From positions 62,001 to 126,000 of the forward strand of contig JAKZMJ010000015.1 in the NCBI GenBank assembly GCA_030491005.1: a DNA stretch of 64,000 nt. The letters are read 5' to 3'. How positions within the stretch are numbered: position 1 is the first letter of the stretch; the number at the start of each line of letters is the position of its first letter. The notes beneath the pieces were generated by a model. That model was given only the letters and a program-made list of their open reading frames with translations. It did no database searches and had not been told where the DNA came from. Of this stretch, positions 45,763-54,607 are shown one piece after another. A program made the translations under genes and the position numbers. Origin of the DNA: Sulfurospirillum sp. (GTDB lineage Bacteria; Campylobacterota; Campylobacteria; Campylobacterales; Arcobacteraceae).

Positions 45763-45930
45763 CTTGGCTCAATATTCTTAAGATAATCTTTATATAATAG
45801 TCAAAGAACAAAGCTTCATTCCCTAAAACTACCTATGTAAGTTCAAAATAACCTTCATGTGCTACTTAAATTAAGTTTACTTATGTTAACATCTTTTTGT
45901 TTTTATTATATTATTTTTAAGGTTATTAAA

Positions 45931-46884
45931 ATGTTTAGTTTTTTTAAATTTATTCAAAATTTTATGCAAAGTTTAAGAAACAACAAAGGTCTTTGGTTTA
46001 CAATCCTTGGTGTGTCTTCTGTTGTAGGAATACTTTTGTCAATGTATTTATTAATAAGCATGACAAAAACTGTTTCTGTTGAAGTTTATACAAATATTTC
46101 TCAAACATATAAAAAGACTTTGAAAAATAAAATTGAAAAAAGAGAAGTAGAGTTTAAAAACTTATTATCATTAATTAAGACAGGAGAAACTTTTTTAAAG
46201 AATATTCAAGATAATAAATTAGGCAAAATTAACAATCAAATAAATTCCTTCAATGATAATTTTATAAAGGCTAAAGTAAATGATTTAAGCATTAAATTTT
46301 ATTCATCAAAAGATCAAATTAATCAGTATAGAAGTAGTATTAACTTTGTAATTAAGAATAAAGCTTCTAATTTTGGTATTGAAGTTTTACCTGAGGGTAT
46401 ATTTTTATTATTAATTGAACCAATTATTAAAAATAAAGAACTTTTAGGTGTTTTAGAAATAAAAGAACCTCTTTATTCTTTGAAAAAAGACTTTACTAAA
46501 GATAATGGTATCTTTTTATTCTTGCTTGATGAAAAAATGTTAAAAATATTATCTCCAAAAGCTAGAAATGGAAGATACAAGGTTATTATGAATAATTTGT
46601 ATGTTGAAGAGTTAAGATATAGCAGTTCTTTTTATGGGAAAATATTAGAAAAAGGAAAAGATGGTTTTAATCAATTATTAGATGATGGTTATTATCTTGA
46701 TAAAGTTTATTTTAAAACATATGATAAAATATCAGATATAAATGGTAATATTGTAGGTTATGTAGTCTTAGGTGAAGTAGTTGAAGGTAGTGGTGCATTT
46801 GTTAATATAGTAAATGATATGACAAAAACAGTTACTACCGTTGCTTTAGGTTTAGTAATTTCAATATTACTATTTATGTTTTAG
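45931..46884 (+). CDS. Two-TM protein with Cache-like extracytoplasmic domain
   Basis: 317 residues from ATG 45931, which follows TAAGG by 8 bases; the longer frame from 45859 lacks a ribosome site. One membrane helix lies at about 22-44 and a second at the very C-terminus (about 298-317). Between them is a roughly 250-residue periplasmic region whose SISFN-type helix, KASNFGIEVLPEGIFLLLIE and then PIIKNKELLGVLEIKEPLYS match double-Cache sensory domains of bacterial chemoreceptors and kinases. NGNIVGYVVLGEV is the second repeat-like stretch. There is no cytoplasmic output domain, so it must signal through a partner. First gene of the six-gene operon, 13 bases from the channel gene. Confidence 0.75.
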   Translation: MFSFFKFIQNFMQSLRNNKGLWFTILGVSSVVGILLSMYLLISMTKTVSVEVYTNISQTYKKTLKNKIEKREVEFKNLLSLIKTGETFLKNIQDNKLGKINNQINSFNDNFIKAKVNDLSIKFYSSKDQINQYRSSINFVIKNKASNFGIEVLPEGIFLLLIEPIIKNKELLGVLEIKEPLYSLKKDFTKDNGIFLFLLDEKMLKILSPKARNGRYKVIMNNLYVEELRYSSSFYGKILEKGKDGFNQLLDDGYYLDKVYFKTYDKISDINGNIVGYVVLGEVVEGSGAFVNIVNDMTKTVTTVALGLVISILLFMF

Positions 46885-46897
46885 AAGGTTATTAAAT

Positions 46898-48073
46898 ATG
46901 AGACGAATTAAAATTTTAAAAATCTTTTTTGTATTTATACTCTTTTTAGTTTTTTTAGTTTTTTCTAACTTTACTGTAATTAGTAATTTTTTTATGGCTA
47001 CTTTAACTTTTAATGTAGCTATTTCAACAATGTTTACAATTGGTTTAATAGTAGTTTATCAATCTGCAATTAGGCTTACTATACTTTCAGGAACATTTGG
47101 AATATTGGCATATAAAAAAGGAAAAGAATTAGAGTTTTACTTAAAGGGCATTACTAATGTATTTCCTGCAACTATTGCTTTTATGTTTGAAAAAAGAGCA
47201 CATAAAGGTGTTTTATATTTTACAAATAATGAGGCTAAAGATGTTTCAGAATGGTTAAGTGAACAATTTTTTAATCAAAAAGGTTATACAGGTTTTTTTG
47301 TAGGTACATCTTTAATGTTGGGGCTATTTGGAACATTTACAGGTTTACTTGTAGCAATTGATGAAATGGGTGCTATTATATTATCTTTTGGTGGAGATGA
47401 TATTGATTTAGGTGAAGTTATGACCAGCTTTGCAGGACCACTTAGTGGTATGTCTATTGGTTTTGCTTCATCTTTATTTGGTGTAGCTTCTGCTATTATA
47501 TTAAATATTATGCAATATATTTTAACAAGAAATCAAGCAGCTTTTTTAGAAGATGTTGAAGATTGGATGAAGGGCAAAATGATTGAATCACAAAGCTCAG
47601 AGGTATTAGAAGAAATCAAAGGTGGCTCACTTGGACATATATCTAATATAGCATCAGGTGGTATAGGAGGAGGCGGACAGTCTTCAGGTGGTGATATTTC
47701 AAGTGGTGCTTTAAATATCTTCATTGATACTATTTCAGAATTTACTGATAAATTAGATAAGGCTAATAATATGTCAAGTGATATGTATAGTGTTATTTCT
47801 AGTAATTTATTAGAAACCAATAATTCTAATGAAAAAGAAAAAATATTACTAGAGGGTATTTTAAATAATTTAAAAGAATTAAATGTTAATCAATTTTCTA
47901 ACTCAGCTATGATGGAAGAATCTTTACAAGATATTTCAAGTGTAATAATGGCAGAGCATAAAACAATGAAAAAAACTTTAAGCTTGCAAGAAGACAATAA
48001 TAAAATTTTATTAGAAATGGTATCAACATTGAATAATAAATTTGATAAACTTGAGTCTTCTTTTGATAAATAA
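46898..48073 (+). CDS. MotA/TolQ/ExbB-family proton channel protein
   Basis: 391 residues. The family core is seen in GFFVGTSLMLGLFGTFTGLLVA (first channel helix, split: GTSLMLGLFGTFTGLL), then GEVMTSFAGPLSGMSIGFAS and LFGVASAIILNIMQYIL. Two hydrophobic helices lie before residue 60. After the core, a glycine-rich linker (GGIGGGGQSSGG, about 255-268) leads to a charged, coiled-coil-like tail to 391. Such channels couple proton flow to work on periplasmic or outer-membrane partners. The next gene supplies the matching MotB/TolR-like subunit 11 bases downstream. It lacks the flagellar MotA cytoplasmic signature, and no flagellar genes are near. Confidence 0.9.
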   Translation: MRRIKILKIFFVFILFLVFLVFSNFTVISNFFMATLTFNVAISTMFTIGLIVVYQSAIRLTILSGTFGILAYKKGKELEFYLKGITNVFPATIAFMFEKRAHKGVLYFTNNEAKDVSEWLSEQFFNQKGYTGFFVGTSLMLGLFGTFTGLLVAIDEMGAIILSFGGDDIDLGEVMTSFAGPLSGMSIGFASSLFGVASAIILNIMQYILTRNQAAFLEDVEDWMKGKMIESQSSEVLEEIKGGSLGHISNIASGGIGGGGQSSGGDISSGALNIFIDTISEFTDKLDKANNMSSDMYSVISSNLLETNNSNEKEKILLEGILNNLKELNVNQFSNSAMMEESLQDISSVIMAEHKTMKKTLSLQEDNNKILLEMVSTLNNKFDKLESSFDK

Positions 48074-48084
48074 AAGTACCTACA

Positions 48085-48834
48085 ATGGCTAATAGATGTG
48101 AAGATGAATTTAATCCATGGCCTTCATTTGTTGATATTTTCTCATCAGTAATTCTAGTTTTATTACTTTTTTTATTGGTAATTTTAGTTAACTTGGGCTT
48201 TTATGCCCAATTTAAATATAAGGTTTCGTACACAGGTTCGATATCATCAGATGATCTTATTTTGAACGATAATCCAGTTGAAGTAAAAATAAAAGAAGAA
48301 ACGGTAGAAACTAAATCAAAAAAAGAAGCTGAAACAACAAAAGAAGCAAAAAAAATAATACAAGTACAAGCAGAACTTGCTAAACTACGGAAAATTATAA
48401 AAAAAGAAGAGTTAAAAAAAGGTATTAAAGGTGTCATATCTGGTGGAGTTGATGTATATGATGTAAAAGATGATGATAATAAATCCGAACAAACAATAAT
48501 ATTAAATGATGAATATATTATTGTTACATTTAAAGAAAATGAAATGTTTTTGGATAATTCATCAATGAAACAAATTCAAAGTTTTATAAAAAACATAAAA
48601 GATAAATACAAAATAAAGAAAATCATAATTAGTGCTTACGATATAAAAGGGCAAGTTAGTGCAACTATTACAAAACAAATTTCGCTAGCAAGGTCTATTG
48701 GTACTAGAAATTTAATACGAAAAATGGGTTATAATAAAAAAGATGTTAGAATAAATCTTAGAGGTATTACTAATATTAAAGAAAAAATCAAAAGTAATAA
48801 TGGTTATATAGTTGTAAGGGTTAAAAAACAATGA
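48085..48834 (+). CDS. MotB-like protein with OmpA-type C-terminal domain
   Basis: 249 residues. EFNPWPSFVDIFSSVILVLL carries one membrane helix (about 14-40) and Asp17, the position of the proton-binding aspartate of MotB. A charged coiled linker (about 60-120) follows. The C-terminal 110 residues form an OmpA/MotB fold: NDEYIIVTFKENEMFLDNSS, IIISAYDIKG, then QISLARSIGTRNLIRKMGY as the peptidoglycan-contact helix, and YIVVRVKKQ as the last strand. It would form the stator with the upstream channel protein and hold the peptidoglycan. Its stop overlaps the TolC start as ATGA. Confidence 0.87.
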   Translation: MANRCEDEFNPWPSFVDIFSSVILVLLLFLLVILVNLGFYAQFKYKVSYTGSISSDDLILNDNPVEVKIKEETVETKSKKEAETTKEAKKIIQVQAELAKLRKIIKKEELKKGIKGVISGGVDVYDVKDDDNKSEQTIILNDEYIIVTFKENEMFLDNSSMKQIQSFIKNIKDKYKIKKIIISAYDIKGQVSATITKQISLARSIGTRNLIRKMGYNKKDVRINLRGITNIKEKIKSNNGYIVVRVKKQ

Positions 48835-51680
48835 GAATAATATATAAAACAACATTATTGTTATTTATCTTATTTCCTTTGCTTTTATCTGGGCAAACAA
48901 AAAATGAACTATTAGAAAATGATAAAGATAAAAAATATATAATTCCAAAATATGTTGATGTCAGTAAAAAAATTAAAACTTATATATCTAAAGCTAATGC
49001 AAAAACAAATGATTATGTTAAAGTTAAGTTAATTGATGTTGTATTAGAAAGCTTGTCAAACAGTGATATATTAAAATCTGCTAAAGAAGAAGTAATAAAA
49101 AGTGAACTAGAATTAGAAAATGCTATATCTTCTTATTATCCATTAGTAAATTTTAAATACACTTTTGGAAAAACAAGAGCTTATCCTGGAGATAAAAAAG
49201 TTAAATACAAATATAATAAAGATAGGGCATATAACTTAACAATTAATCAAAATTTATATTCTGGTGGTTCTACTTATTACTCTGTGATTAATGCTAGAAA
49301 AAAATTATCTTACAATAAAAATAATTATGAAATATCTCTTAACAAAAATATAAAAAAATCAATTGAAGCATATTTTAAAGTGGTATTTACAAATAGAAAT
49401 TTGTTAATACACAAAAGAAATATCAAAACATTAAATAAAATTTTAAAGATAACACAATTAAAATTTGATGGTGGAGCCTTATCTTTAGGAGACATCACAT
49501 CAATTAAATTAAGTGTTACAAGTGCAAAACTAAAAGTACTAAAAATTGAATCAAAGTTTATTCAAGCACTAAGATATTATGAATATATTGTTGGAGTAAA
49601 CTTTAATAATACTTTACCATATGAAAAAAACTTTAATATTAATTTTATAGATTTTAAAAGTCTATTTAAAAGAGCATTAGCAAAAAATAAAAATCTTATT
49701 AATCATTATAAAAATATTGAAATAGAAAAAAATAATTTAAATATTACAAAAGCAGCTCTAAAACCAAAACTTGATTTAAAATTATCGTATGATAAAATTT
49801 TAGATAAAAATGATTTTACTATTAAGGAAAACACCGCTCAAGCAGAATTTAAATTAAGTTATAATTTATTTAATGGTGGTAAAGATTTAAATGCTATATT
49901 AAAAGTTTCTAGTACTATTAGAGATTTACATAATAAATTAAATGAAGCAATAAGAAAATTAAAATGGAACTTATCTAAGGCTTATATATCTGTACTATCT
50001 AATAAAGAATCATTGCAAAATAATGTTTTAGAAGTAAAAACATCAAGAAAAATGGTAAGGGCATACTGGCAAGCTTTTGAATTAGGTGAACAAGAATTAC
50101 AAGTATTACTTCAAGGACAAAAACAGCTTAATACTGCTGAAGCGGATTTAATTAAAAATGAACAAAGCTATATAAAAGATTTTTTTGATATTTTAAATTT
50201 AAGCGGAGATTTGTCATCATTTTTTGATGTAGACCCACAGGATATAAAATTTATTAATTTTTCAAAAAGTGATTATAAAACCAATATTTACACAAATAAG
50301 CATATTGATTTAAATTTAAACAATAAAAAGAAATTAACAAATAAGCCAAGTAAGTCTATGAATATTCCACTTCCTCAAATTACTTTGAATGAAAATATTA
50401 AGGCTTATATTAAGAAATTCTTTAATTTTAAAGATGAAGAGTATAGTTTAGAAATTTCTCCATTTAATAATATTTATGATGCATTTGAGTTTATTGAACA
50501 AAATGACATGGAAAATGAAGCTTTTTCTTATGATAGTGTAAACAATTATCGTATTAATAGCAAAATAATATTTGGGCATTATGAAACAAAAGAAATAGCC
50601 ATAAAACAAAAAGAAATATTAGAAAAAAAATATAAAAATAAAATATTTAAAATTAAAAAAATTAAAAAAATTAAAGTCTTATATCAGAAATATATTGATG
50701 GCTTAAAAGTTAAAAAAGAAAAAGTCAAAATACAAATTCTAGAAATAGTCAAGATTATTGAGAAAATTAAACAAGTTAAAAAACAAAAGATTTTTACATC
50801 AAATAAGATTTTTAAGAATACATTTTTGAATGAAGATGACGATAAATTCACTATTAGTATCGCATCTTTTATATCTTTAGATAAACTTGAAGAACTTGTA
50901 TTAAAATATAATTTATATGATCAATCATTATTCTTTTATTATAACGATTTTGGTAAATTAATAAAATTGGTTTATGGAGTTTATGATAATTATGAAGATG
51001 CTAAAAATGCTATATATAATTTTGATTCTGATTTAACAAGTCTTCATTTACCTATCATTGAAAAGATTTCTTCCATAAAAAAACTTTATACTCAAAATAT
51101 AAATATAAACGAAAAGAAAATAGAAAAAGTAGAATATGAATATATAAGTGTTAAATCTTTTAAAGAAAATCCAAAGTTGCTGGTAAATAAAAACGAAGAA
51201 AACGAAGAAAACGAAGAAAACGAAGAAGTAATTGAAAACGAAGAAAATGAAGAAAATGAAGAAAATGAAGAAAATGAAGAAAATGAAGAAAATGAAGAAA
51301 ATGAAGAAAATGAAGAAAATGAAGAAAATGAAGAAAATGAAGAAGTAATTGAAAATGAAGAAGTAAAAGAACTTTCTTTTAAAGAAAGATTTTTAAAAGC
51401 TCCAATATATTATTACACTATTAATATAGGTTCTTTTTCAAATATAAACTTGGCCAATAAATTTATAAAAAATAATAAACTTAAAGAAAAAGTTTTTCTT
51501 GTTTATACTAGTAAAAAATATATAAAAATAATGTATGGTATTTATCCAAATAAAATAGAAACAAAAAAGAACTTTAGTAAGCTTTCAAAGCTTATAAAAA
51601 GTAATAATCCATTTATTCAAAGAATTTATAGAGCTCAAGTTTTATACAAGAAAACTAACTTAACTGGATTTTCAAAGTGA
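48831..51680 (+). CDS. TolC-family outer-membrane channel with three SPOR-like repeats
   Basis: 949 residues, against about 430-500 for ordinary TolC. Signal peptide 1-21 is followed by an outer-membrane efflux domain (about 60-460: VLESLSNSDILKSAKEEVIK, the helical barrel repeats, and NLYSGGSTYYSV and YNLFNGGKDLNA as the two beta-strand turns). The next 490 residues hold three SPOR-like units: about 537-610, 671-744 (FTISIASFISLDKLEELVLK) and 860-934 (YYTINIGSFSNINLANKFIK). Between the last two is an acidic linker of NEE units. SPOR domains bind denuded septal glycan, so the channel may be anchored to peptidoglycan. It overlaps both neighbours by 4 bases. Confidence 0.85.
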   Translation: MRIIYKTTLLLFILFPLLLSGQTKNELLENDKDKKYIIPKYVDVSKKIKTYISKANAKTNDYVKVKLIDVVLESLSNSDILKSAKEEVIKSELELENAISSYYPLVNFKYTFGKTRAYPGDKKVKYKYNKDRAYNLTINQNLYSGGSTYYSVINARKKLSYNKNNYEISLNKNIKKSIEAYFKVVFTNRNLLIHKRNIKTLNKILKITQLKFDGGALSLGDITSIKLSVTSAKLKVLKIESKFIQALRYYEYIVGVNFNNTLPYEKNFNINFIDFKSLFKRALAKNKNLINHYKNIEIEKNNLNITKAALKPKLDLKLSYDKILDKNDFTIKENTAQAEFKLSYNLFNGGKDLNAILKVSSTIRDLHNKLNEAIRKLKWNLSKAYISVLSNKESLQNNVLEVKTSRKMVRAYWQAFELGEQELQVLLQGQKQLNTAEADLIKNEQSYIKDFFDILNLSGDLSSFFDVDPQDIKFINFSKSDYKTNIYTNKHIDLNLNNKKKLTNKPSKSMNIPLPQITLNENIKAYIKKFFNFKDEEYSLEISPFNNIYDAFEFIEQNDMENEAFSYDSVNNYRINSKIIFGHYETKEIAIKQKEILEKKYKNKIFKIKKIKKIKVLYQKYIDGLKVKKEKVKIQILEIVKIIEKIKQVKKQKIFTSNKIFKNTFLNEDDDKFTISIASFISLDKLEELVLKYNLYDQSLFFYYNDFGKLIKLVYGVYDNYEDAKNAIYNFDSDLTSLHLPIIEKISSIKKLYTQNININEKKIEKVEYEYISVKSFKENPKLLVNKNEENEENEENEEVIENEENEENEENEENEENEENEENEENEENEENEENEEVIENEEVKELSFKERFLKAPIYYYTINIGSFSNINLANKFIKNNKLKEKVFLVYTSKKYIKIMYGIYPNKIETKKNFSKLSKLIKSNNPFIQRIYRAQVLYKKTNLTGFSK
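51192..51362 (+). repeat. 9-bp tandem repeat encoding Asn-Glu-Glu units in the TolC-like gene
   Basis: AACGAAGAA or AATGAAGAA is repeated 17 times: 4 units, VIE, 12 units, VIE, 1 unit. The first five units (four before the first VIE and the first after it) use AAC and the rest AAT. Unit length is a multiple of three, so slippage changes length without breaking the frame. Confidence 0.9.
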
Positions 51681-53872
51681 ATCTATCAAAATATAAACTT
51701 TTTCACAAATATAACAATACTATAACTAGAAATATTTTTATACTATTTGGTATTTTGTTTATATTATTTATTTTTTCTTCTTATGTATTTTTTAATGATT
51801 ATAAGACTAATATAATTATGAAATCTAAAAATGAATATAAATTTAATATAGAATATTTAAATCTACAATTTGAAAAATATTTAATAAATAATGATAATAA
51901 AAAATTAATAGAAAACTTAAACAATAATTTTAATAGTAAATTCATCTCTAAAATTGATTTTAAATTCAAAAACTTTTTATTTGATAAAAATACACTTTTT
52001 TTACAAACTAAAAATTTAGAAAAAATACATTGGAATATTTTGGATATATCAATTGATGCAAAATATGGAAAAATCAAGAAGCTTACTAATTCTCAAACTT
52101 ATCAATATATTCCATTAGATAATAAAATACAAATAAAAGATATTCCTATTAAATATCAAATACGCACTCAAGATGATATCAAACAATATTTGCTTCATTT
52201 AAATTTTGGTAATATTCAAAAAATATTTTTTCAACAAAATAAATTTAAAATACCTTCATGGTTTATGTATATTATTCAACCTGATATAAGAAGTATTGAA
52301 AAAGAATTACACATATCAAATATTAAATTTGGAAATATTGTTTATAATATTGATACAAGTAGTGTGAGCTATGAACTGTATAATTTATTTATTAATCTTA
52401 TTTTATTTACATTAATCTTATTTATTCCAATTTTAATAATTTTAAACTATTATCATCTTTTTGTCTTAAAAAAATATGTAACGGAGCCAATTCAGTATTT
52501 AAATTCTTATTTAGATAAGTTAAATGATAATAAGTTTGAAATTTTAAATAAAAATAATTTTGAGGGAAGAGATGAATTAAAAGAGCTAACTCAAAAAATT
52601 AGTAAAATTTCTGGAAAATTTTCTTCTTTAATAAATGAAGTTAATGTTGCTAAAGAAACTATTGAAAGACAAGCTTTAATTGATCAAGTAACAGGCTTAG
52701 CAAACAGACAAAGATTTGATTTTGACATAAAAAGTATGTTTATTAACGAGCAAAATGGTTTTGTTTTTTTACTTAAAGTTGATTGCTTAGGACAACTTAG
52801 TCAAAATTATGATGTAAGTTATATAAATAGTTTCCTTGAAGCATATATTAATATTATTAAAAACACTATATATAAATATAGTAAAACTGATATTATGTTA
52901 TATAGATTTTATGGTTCAGATTTTGCAATTATAATAAAAGAATATGATTTTAGCACCTGTACTGAGATATTACAACTTACTATTAAAAATATAAATACTG
53001 GAATAAAAGATATATTTGATACTTCAGATAATATAATACTAATAGGTGGAACAAAGTTTGATTTATATGGAAGTGTAGATTCTATTTTAAAATCTTCGTA
53101 TCAAGCCCTAGAAATTGCAAGAAAACAGGGAAATAATACACTTTATATAAATAGTGAATCAAATACATTATTTGATACCTTACATGATAATATTGTCAAT
53201 ATGATAAATGATGGAACATTTGAGATTAATTTTACTTTATCAACTTATTTATTTGATGAACCAAAAGAATTAATTATGCAAGAAGTAAAAGCTGTCTTAC
53301 TTGATAAAAACAATAGTAAAATTGACATTGGGTCTTTTATATCAATTGCAAAACATATTCAAAAAGTTGATGCATTTGATAAGTTAATGGTAGAAAAAAC
53401 ATTAGCTTATATAAATGGTATTGATAAAAAATATTTTATAGCTATAAACATATCTTTTTCTTCAATTAACAAATTTGAATTTATGCAATGGCTAGAAGAT
53501 ATTTTAAATAAATATAATTCTATTAAAAAATATATAGTATTCAGTGTAACTTCCTATACTGCTAGTTTAAATAAAAAATCATTTGAAAAATTTGTTAAGA
53601 AAATAGATGAAATAGGCTCTAAAGTTTTACTAAAACGTTATAAAATAGATGAATACCCTTTACAGTTTTTAAATAATTTGCCAATAGGTTTTATTAGAAT
53701 TGCTAAAGATTATACTAATAACTTTAGTTCTGATATGATTAAAAAACATAAAGTTAAAAGTATATTGATTTATGGTGAGTTAAATGAAATAGAAATCATA
53801 GCAGATAAAGTTGATCTTGATGCTGATTATGATTTACTAGAAAGATCAGGAACATATGCAATTTGTAGATAA
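51677..53872 (+). CDS. LapD-like degenerate GGDEF/EAL membrane protein
   Basis: 731 residues. Membrane helices at about 20-39 and 237-262 bracket a roughly 195-residue periplasmic domain. A HAMP-like linker (VTEPIQYLNSYLDKLNDN) follows, then a GGDEF domain starting LIDQVTGLANRQRFDFD, in which the catalytic GGDEF is replaced by FYGSDF (about 409-414). The EAL domain follows (from about 514), with QEVK where E-A-L is expected. Both catalytic motifs are thus lost. This matches LapD-type c-di-GMP receptors, which signal to the periplasm to control a protease or adhesin. The start is GTG 51677, overlapping the TolC stop. Confidence 0.85.
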   Translation: MNLSKYKLFHKYNNTITRNIFILFGILFILFIFSSYVFFNDYKTNIIMKSKNEYKFNIEYLNLQFEKYLINNDNKKLIENLNNNFNSKFISKIDFKFKNFLFDKNTLFLQTKNLEKIHWNILDISIDAKYGKIKKLTNSQTYQYIPLDNKIQIKDIPIKYQIRTQDDIKQYLLHLNFGNIQKIFFQQNKFKIPSWFMYIIQPDIRSIEKELHISNIKFGNIVYNIDTSSVSYELYNLFINLILFTLILFIPILIILNYYHLFVLKKYVTEPIQYLNSYLDKLNDNKFEILNKNNFEGRDELKELTQKISKISGKFSSLINEVNVAKETIERQALIDQVTGLANRQRFDFDIKSMFINEQNGFVFLLKVDCLGQLSQNYDVSYINSFLEAYINIIKNTIYKYSKTDIMLYRFYGSDFAIIIKEYDFSTCTEILQLTIKNINTGIKDIFDTSDNIILIGGTKFDLYGSVDSILKSSYQALEIARKQGNNTLYINSESNTLFDTLHDNIVNMINDGTFEINFTLSTYLFDEPKELIMQEVKAVLLDKNNSKIDIGSFISIAKHIQKVDAFDKLMVEKTLAYINGIDKKYFIAINISFSSINKFEFMQWLEDILNKYNSIKKYIVFSVTSYTASLNKKSFEKFVKKIDEIGSKVLLKRYKIDEYPLQFLNNLPIGFIRIAKDYTNNFSSDMIKKHKVKSILIYGELNEIEIIADKVDLDADYDLLERSGTYAICR

Positions 53873-53884
53873 GGTTATGAAAAA

Positions 53885-54607
53885 ATGTTAAAATATTTAT
53901 TGTTAATATTAATGATTACAGGGTGTGCATATAAAAAAGATATTAAAATAAAAAAAGACCCTTTTGTTTCTTCTTTTGTATATTATAATATTTCAAAAGA
54001 TGCAGTTATGGAAGCTGCCAAAAAAGTTTTTGTATTTACTAATAAAAAGTTTGTATTAAATTCATATAGAAATTTACTAACTGCAAGAAAAACAAATATT
54101 ACTAATTATCTTTTTACTACAGTACTAAAAGAAGATATATGGTTTATAAATGTTAGAGAAATAAATAATAAAACAATTGCAAAAGTTTATACTCAAAGAA
54201 TTTATAATTCAAATGATAATATTAAATATTTAAGTAAAGACTCACATAAAATACTTTGGAAAAGAATTAATTATTTTTTATCTATTGAAAAAAACTGGGA
54301 AAGTTGTTTTTTATATCTAAATAGTTTGTGTGATATAAAAGGACAAAAATATTTTAATCAACCATCTAATAATGATAAAATTAAAAATATACTAATATCT
54401 CAAAGACATAAAAGCAAAGATATTGTTGATATAAATGATGATATTTTATTAAATGACAGTTTTTCAATTACTAAAAATAAAAAAGATATTTTGGATGTAA
54501 AAAATGTCTTAAAAGAAAATTCTAATGAAGAACAAAGAAAGCCAGATGCTAATATCGAAAAAATTTTAGACCAAATAAAAAAAGAAACCAATAATTCTTT
54601 AAAGTAA
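53885..54607 (+). CDS. Lipoprotein, last gene of the TolC/LapD-like operon
   Basis: 240 residues with a signal peptide and lipobox at MITGC (Cys at about 15). It then has a roughly 150-residue folded part (KDAVMEAAKKVFVFTNKKFV, SYRNLLTARKTNITNYLFTT, FLSIEKNWESCFLYLNSLCD) with two cysteines (in ESC and LCD). A charged, low-complexity tail follows. No catalytic Cys-His-Asp triad of LapG-type proteases is visible. It is 12 bases after the LapD-like gene and probably completes the envelope complex. Function unknown. Confidence 0.75.
   Translation: MLKYLLLILMITGCAYKKDIKIKKDPFVSSFVYYNISKDAVMEAAKKVFVFTNKKFVLNSYRNLLTARKTNITNYLFTTVLKEDIWFINVREINNKTIAKVYTQRIYNSNDNIKYLSKDSHKILWKRINYFLSIEKNWESCFLYLNSLCDIKGQKYFNQPSNNDKIKNILISQRHKSKDIVDINDDILLNDSFSITKNKKDILDVKNVLKENSNEEQRKPDANIEKILDQIKKETNNSLK

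Follow-up and report, generated by a model that had tools for sequence, protein, structure and literature searches.

The window (the whole 64,000-nucleotide stretch of DNA analysed here, C15:62001-126000 in contig coordinates) carries a gene whose product, TolC-SPOR, is a TolC-type channel followed by three SPOR-fold units. This domain combination is real, conserved and apparently undescribed, and it probably belongs to a variant form of the type I machinery that secretes giant adhesins under LapD control. The reading frame at 48831-51680 is intact, starts with ATG and encodes the 949 amino acids given in the earlier note on this DNA. Its features are as follows.

48831..51680, forward strand: TolC-SPOR fusion gene, 949 amino acids
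49017..50234, forward strand: TolC (outer membrane factor) domain, residues about 63-468, Pfam OEP 3.4e-37
50439..50684, forward strand: SPOR-fold unit U1, residues 537-618, found by family profile and by fold match to RlpA and DamX
50844..51089, forward strand: SPOR-fold unit U2, residues 672-753, found by DamX SPOR profile match and AlphaFold topology
51190..51344, forward strand: in-frame tandem repeat of a 9-bp unit (17.2 copies), whose product is the acidic (NEE)n linker joining U2 to U3
51411..51650, forward strand: SPOR-fold unit U3, residues 861-940, found by Pfam SPOR, DamX profile and VIA-align

The channel part matched Pfam OEP (PF02321) in two stretches with 128.5 bits (3.4e-37), above the curated cut-off, and NCBIfam type_I_sec_TolC (TIGR01844) over residues 66-462 at 1.8e-43; the 149.1 bits of the latter match, set against a curated cut-off of 225 bits, mark the protein as related to that family and below membership. 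A full AlphaFold model of TolC-SPOR was built with 26 relatives, and its residues 65-467 superposed on solved TolC with a VIA-align Z of 30 over 396-400 residues. A Foldseek search with the full model listed 44 outer membrane factors, and then DamX.

Of the tail units, U3 is recognized by Pfam SPOR (PF05036) over residues 861-930 (2.7e-6, 28.1 bits, cut-off 21), whereas U2 scored 13.5 bits, below the cut-off, and U1 gave no match to that profile. Among 26 homologous U2 units, 16 matched Pfam SPOR at E up to 0.1, some of them reaching 1.1e-6, and single-sequence searches led from U2 to U3 (5.7e-5) as well as from U3 to U2 (2e-5). When compared with the PDB, the U3 profile found the DamX SPOR domain (4.5e-9) and the U2 profile found it as its sole match (1.2e-4). 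No SPOR domain was found there by sequence with the U1 profile, which matched the U2 and U3 profiles with 98.5% and 98.0% probability, respectively.

In the full model a helix comes after each of the three beta-alpha-beta-beta-alpha-beta domains, whose mean pLDDT is mostly 80-93. In VIA-align the DamX SPOR domain superposed on U3 (858-940) with Z 9.2 and an rmsd of 2.0 over 81 residues, and the RlpA SPOR domain superposed on U1 (537-615) with Z 7.1. Folded alone, U1 reached a pLDDT of 94.6; DamX was the top Foldseek match of this model (E 0.01, probability 0.99), and RlpA SPOR aligned with it over 73 of 76 residues (Z 6.8, rmsd 2.5). A Z near 7 is modest if taken by itself, and U1 is assigned to the SPOR fold because its fold, the sequence links that tie it to the other two units and the coverage of the whole domain agree; the assignment of U2 is based on AlphaFold topology together with the sequence profile. 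The earlier note had put the end of normal TolC proteins near residue 480 and had seen three SPOR-like units in about 490 extra residues, to be checked by Pfam searches and a structural model. A TolC domain with U1, U2 and U3 behind it is borne out by profile, by AlphaFold and by structural matches to DamX and RlpA. The Pfam searches agreed for OEP and for U3 and left U1 and U2 below the cut-off, and the TolC part ends somewhat earlier, near residue 468, with disordered linkers in the extension behind it. The linker between U2 and U3 is an acidic one (Glu/Asn), and relatives carry long charged segments, probably helical, in place of this repeat linker. The copy number of the repeat (51190-51344) may differ among strains, with the frame unaffected.

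It could be argued that low-complexity, A+T-rich DNA with tandem repeats had feigned the fusion through a frameshift, a misassembly or chance similarity. However, the SPOR folds are predicted with high confidence and 2-5 units are present in all full-length relatives (by an iterated family profile, in each of the 25 examined), which leaves such an artefact next to no chance of being the explanation; it was rejected because about 38 species genomes share the fusion. Orthologues of TolC-SPOR (E < 1e-90) occur in 38 of the 104 Arcobacteraceae genomes searched, and among the relatives with names are Arcobacter, Aliarcobacter, Halarcobacter, Malaciobacter and Sulfurimonas; a two-unit form is found in two genomes of other families in the same order. 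Plasmid records contain one relative, an Arcobacter protein labelled only 'TolC family protein'. The earlier note knew of no standard family with this arrangement, and the combination of TolC and SPOR appears to be undescribed: searches of openly accessible papers on TolC with SPOR and on Arcobacter giant adhesins, with subscription journals mostly outside their reach, returned no description of such a fusion.

The gene for TolC-SPOR stands within a cluster whose other members are listed here.

45859..46884, forward strand: first cluster gene, product with N- and C-terminal TM segments and a periplasmic domain, conserved in 18 loci
46898..48073, forward strand: MotA/TolQ/ExbB-like (SiiB-like) membrane protein, conserved in 18 loci
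48085..48834, forward strand: MotB/SiiA-like protein, one TM segment, weak OmpA-like C-terminal domain
51677..53872, forward strand: LapD-like c-di-GMP receptor, degenerate GGDEF and EAL motifs
53885..54607, forward strand: putative lipoprotein of 240 amino acids, the last conserved cluster gene, with homologues directly after LapD in 16 loci

The genes of the run are closely packed, and four-base overlaps flank TolC-SPOR on both sides, with the MotB-like gene and with the LapD gene. Genes one to three adjoin TolC-SPOR in 18 loci from relatives, mostly with ABC and HlyD genes directly upstream; the exceptions are a locus without the first three genes (L061), one in which the ABC/HlyD pair is divergent (L062) and the genus to which the window belongs, where both this genome and L067 have a non-adjacent ABC/HlyD pair. 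To judge by the start point of its relatives, the first gene probably begins at the ATG at 45931; its product has no Pfam family above the cut-off. This protein (45859-46884) shows weak dCache_3 similarity only and has no cytoplasmic output domain. Weak matches to Pfam MotA_ExbB were obtained for 9 of the 18 MotA-like homologues (best 6.1e-4) and none for the window protein. The MotB-like protein has an invariant Asp17 in its TM segment (FNPWPSFVDIFSSVILV) and a weak similarity to OmpA (0.011, below the cut-off). PDB profile searches with the MotA-like and MotB-like proteins gave nothing useful. A profile of the LapD-like protein matched P. fluorescens LapD (3pjw) at 4.5e-34 and the periplasmic entry 4u64 at 9e-6 over residues 32-101, and the protein has both a tandem GGDEF-EAL part akin to solved LapD and a periplasmic output domain.

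Genes for an LssB-type ABC protein (731.7 bits, over the cut-off) and for HlyD (5.9e-94) are located at C15:207999-211418, about 80 kb past the end of the window and about 94 kb from TolC-SPOR. A giant RTX gene adjoins them on the same contig (C15:220352-257344, minus strand); its frame has 12,331 codons, giving 12,316 amino acids from the first likely Met, and RTX repeats were verified near the N-terminus of that protein. A further frame of 1353 codons lies past this gene, with the frame break at about 220352-220385. Since the exporter genes are some 80 kb away, the adhesin is paired with TolC-SPOR by analogy to relatives. The first 600 residues of the 12,316-residue adhesin contain no LapG-type (T/A/P)AAG site; TAAK occurs near residue 186. 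LapG (Peptidase C93) is encoded twice in the genome, once next to a second LapD, and it is present in 36 of the 38 family genomes with a TolC-SPOR orthologue, as compared with 49 of the 66 without. The interval that separates the ABC gene from the giant RTX gene encodes an FkbM-like methyltransferase and two TPR/glycosyltransferase-like proteins (L065:11424-16285), and TPR-type genes are seen at the equivalent place in relatives; the giant adhesin may be glycosylated.

Like the Lap system of Pseudomonas fluorescens (LapA, LapBCE, LapD and LapG), this would be type I secretion of a giant adhesin through a TolC-like channel, with a LapD-like receptor gene beside the channel gene and LapG-like protease genes in the genome. 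It differs in that the channel carries 2-5 SPOR units and the cluster includes a MotA/MotB-like pair and two proteins of unassigned family. The LapD is different, too: it matched NCBIfam LapD at 3.7e-34, yet with 118 bits it falls far below the equivalog cut-off of 1020 bits. The combination of a putative giant-adhesin exporter with an accessory MotAB-like inner-membrane pair recalls the Sii system of Salmonella SPI-4 (SiiA-F; PMC6272769). Sii is not known to have LapD or LapG, nor a SPOR tail on SiiC. The likeness of the two pairs is one of type, without a strong sequence match.

The C-terminus of solved TolC is periplasmic, so the tails of TolC-SPOR should reach the peptidoglycan layer. We propose that TolC-SPOR would be the channel across the outer membrane in a type I system that, under c-di-GMP control, exports and holds a giant RTX adhesin. 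Its tails probably fix this exporter to peptidoglycan, a reading that we prefer with some reserve. The C-terminus should leave the TolC fold in the periplasm, and behind it every monomer has three SPOR-fold domains on flexible linkers, so that a trimer would display nine. By binding the peptidoglycan sacculus the tails would fix the channel to the wall, and a channel fixed in this way could bear the pulling force when loaded with adhesin. From the inner membrane, the MotB/SiiA-like partner might make a second contact with the wall. At high c-di-GMP, LapD from the same cluster would keep LapG away, so that the adhesin would stay in the channel; the model borrows this LapD/LapG control, and a SiiAB-like part in energising or retention, from other systems by analogy (PMC6272769; PMC13090378). 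Counted for wall anchoring are the three SPOR-fold domains, the conserved cluster, LapD, LapG, the ABC/HlyD genes beside the RTX gene, the presence of the tail in only two of the genome's seven OEP-family proteins and a related unit in an L,D-transpeptidase, whereas the scores of U1 and U2 below Pfam's cut-off count against it, as do the distant exporter and the adhesin's lack of a (T/A/P)AAG site.

A further objection to wall anchoring comes from the glycan-contacting residues. Gln270 of RlpA, equivalent to Gln351 of DamX, is the sole highly conserved side chain among solved SPOR domains (PMC6895207). In TolC-SPOR this position is occupied by Glu541 (U1), Ser676 (U2) and Asn865 (U3), and none of the 74 aligned tail units has Gln there, which was likewise counted against anchoring. 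In relatives, U1 units mostly have Glu here and 24 of 26 U2 units have Asn; U3 and the units after it vary, Asn being the most frequent residue. Gln is retained, however, in this genome's own FtsN-like and RlpA proteins. On the other hand, U1 always has the Phe274 equivalent and U2 almost always does, and U3 is basic with an aromatic residue at the Trp416 position. Glycan binding by the tail units is thus plausible from their sequences, and its specificity may differ.

The same residues bear on where the exporter might be placed. By analogy with SPOR domains elsewhere, the tails could bind the denuded glycan made by amidases and so bring the exporter to the septum and later to the poles, which would lead to polar attachment. 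Such septal or polar placement, suggested in the earlier note, is an extrapolation from the behaviour of SPOR domains in other proteins; the note had passed over the gene context that best accounts for TolC-SPOR, a LapD- and SiiAB-like system for giant adhesins. The fold akin to that of septal DamX and RlpA, the conserved Phe274 equivalent and the basic U3 with its aromatic residue agree with it. Yet the loss of the Gln that the genome's own division-type SPOR domains retain makes it doubtful. FtsN, DamX, DedD and RlpA share the SPOR fold with the tail units, DamX being the nearest solved domain to U2 and U3, but the units of TolC-SPOR differ from them in standing in tandem, on an outer-membrane export channel, and without the glycan-contacting Gln.

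If the missing Gln is taken at face value, the units may have no part in peptidoglycan binding and could be spacers or docking domains for proteins such as LapD, LapG, the MotB-like protein or an adhesin plug. The divergence of U1 and U2 would fit this, the near-constant Asn of U2 could mean another partner, and the MotB-like and LapD genes are tightly linked to TolC-SPOR through their overlaps. However, the other contacts between SPOR domains and glycan are mostly made via the backbone (PMC6895207), so that the fold alone may suffice for binding. Moreover, another genome encodes a SPOR-like unit related to those of the tail (L108, G224:C4:35183-35404) within a protein that has a YkuD-type L,D-transpeptidase motif (SGGCIRM), as would suit a function at peptidoglycan. 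We therefore regard a role apart from glycan as quite improbable, and rank wall anchoring first, septal or polar targeting second and the non-glycan role third. The more specific proposal, that tandem SPOR domains of its own position a type I channel at, or anchor it to, one particular kind of peptidoglycan, is offered tentatively, as somewhat short of an even chance.

According to a structural study of 2019, every SPOR protein known at the time acted in cell division or morphogenesis (PMC6895207). The present analysis adds a SPOR domain that many Campylobacterota conserve as part of a probable adhesin exporter, and the tail units provide a natural set of SPOR domains without the usual glycan-binding Gln. 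They suggest a possible answer to how the channel of a giant adhesin withstands pulling force or gets placed on the cell. If the proposal is true, the reach of SPOR domains would extend beyond division and morphogenesis to secretion machines, with glycan specificity changed along with the replacement of Gln by Asn or Glu, and there would be a direct mechanical or spatial link from the cell wall to a c-di-GMP-controlled giant adhesin.

A second system of this kind is encoded on contig C5 of the same genome, where a TolC of 595 residues carries a single SPOR unit, matched by the family profile at 7.3e-18, and has as neighbours ABC and HlyD-type genes, an OmpA-like protein and an adhesin with Ca-binding repeats. 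This shorter Arcobacteraceae form (about 600 residues, L063) resembles TolC-SPOR in its TolC domain, its related SPOR unit and its position near ABC/HlyD genes; it differs in having a single unit, and the MotA/MotB-like pair was not seen alongside. Seven OEP-family proteins are encoded in the genome, and a SPOR tail is found in two of them, both belonging to giant-adhesin exporters; the other five gave no SPOR-family match. Drug efflux was discarded as the main interpretation of TolC-SPOR in view of its gene cluster and of these five proteins. Elsewhere in the genome (L003, G000:C8:38768-39904, minus strand), a frame of 457 codons encodes a signal-like N-terminus and three such SPOR units without a TolC domain. 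The N-terminus of the C5 adhesin (L063:6610-8112) contains GASAAGGDG near residue 152, which resembles a LapG cleavage site.
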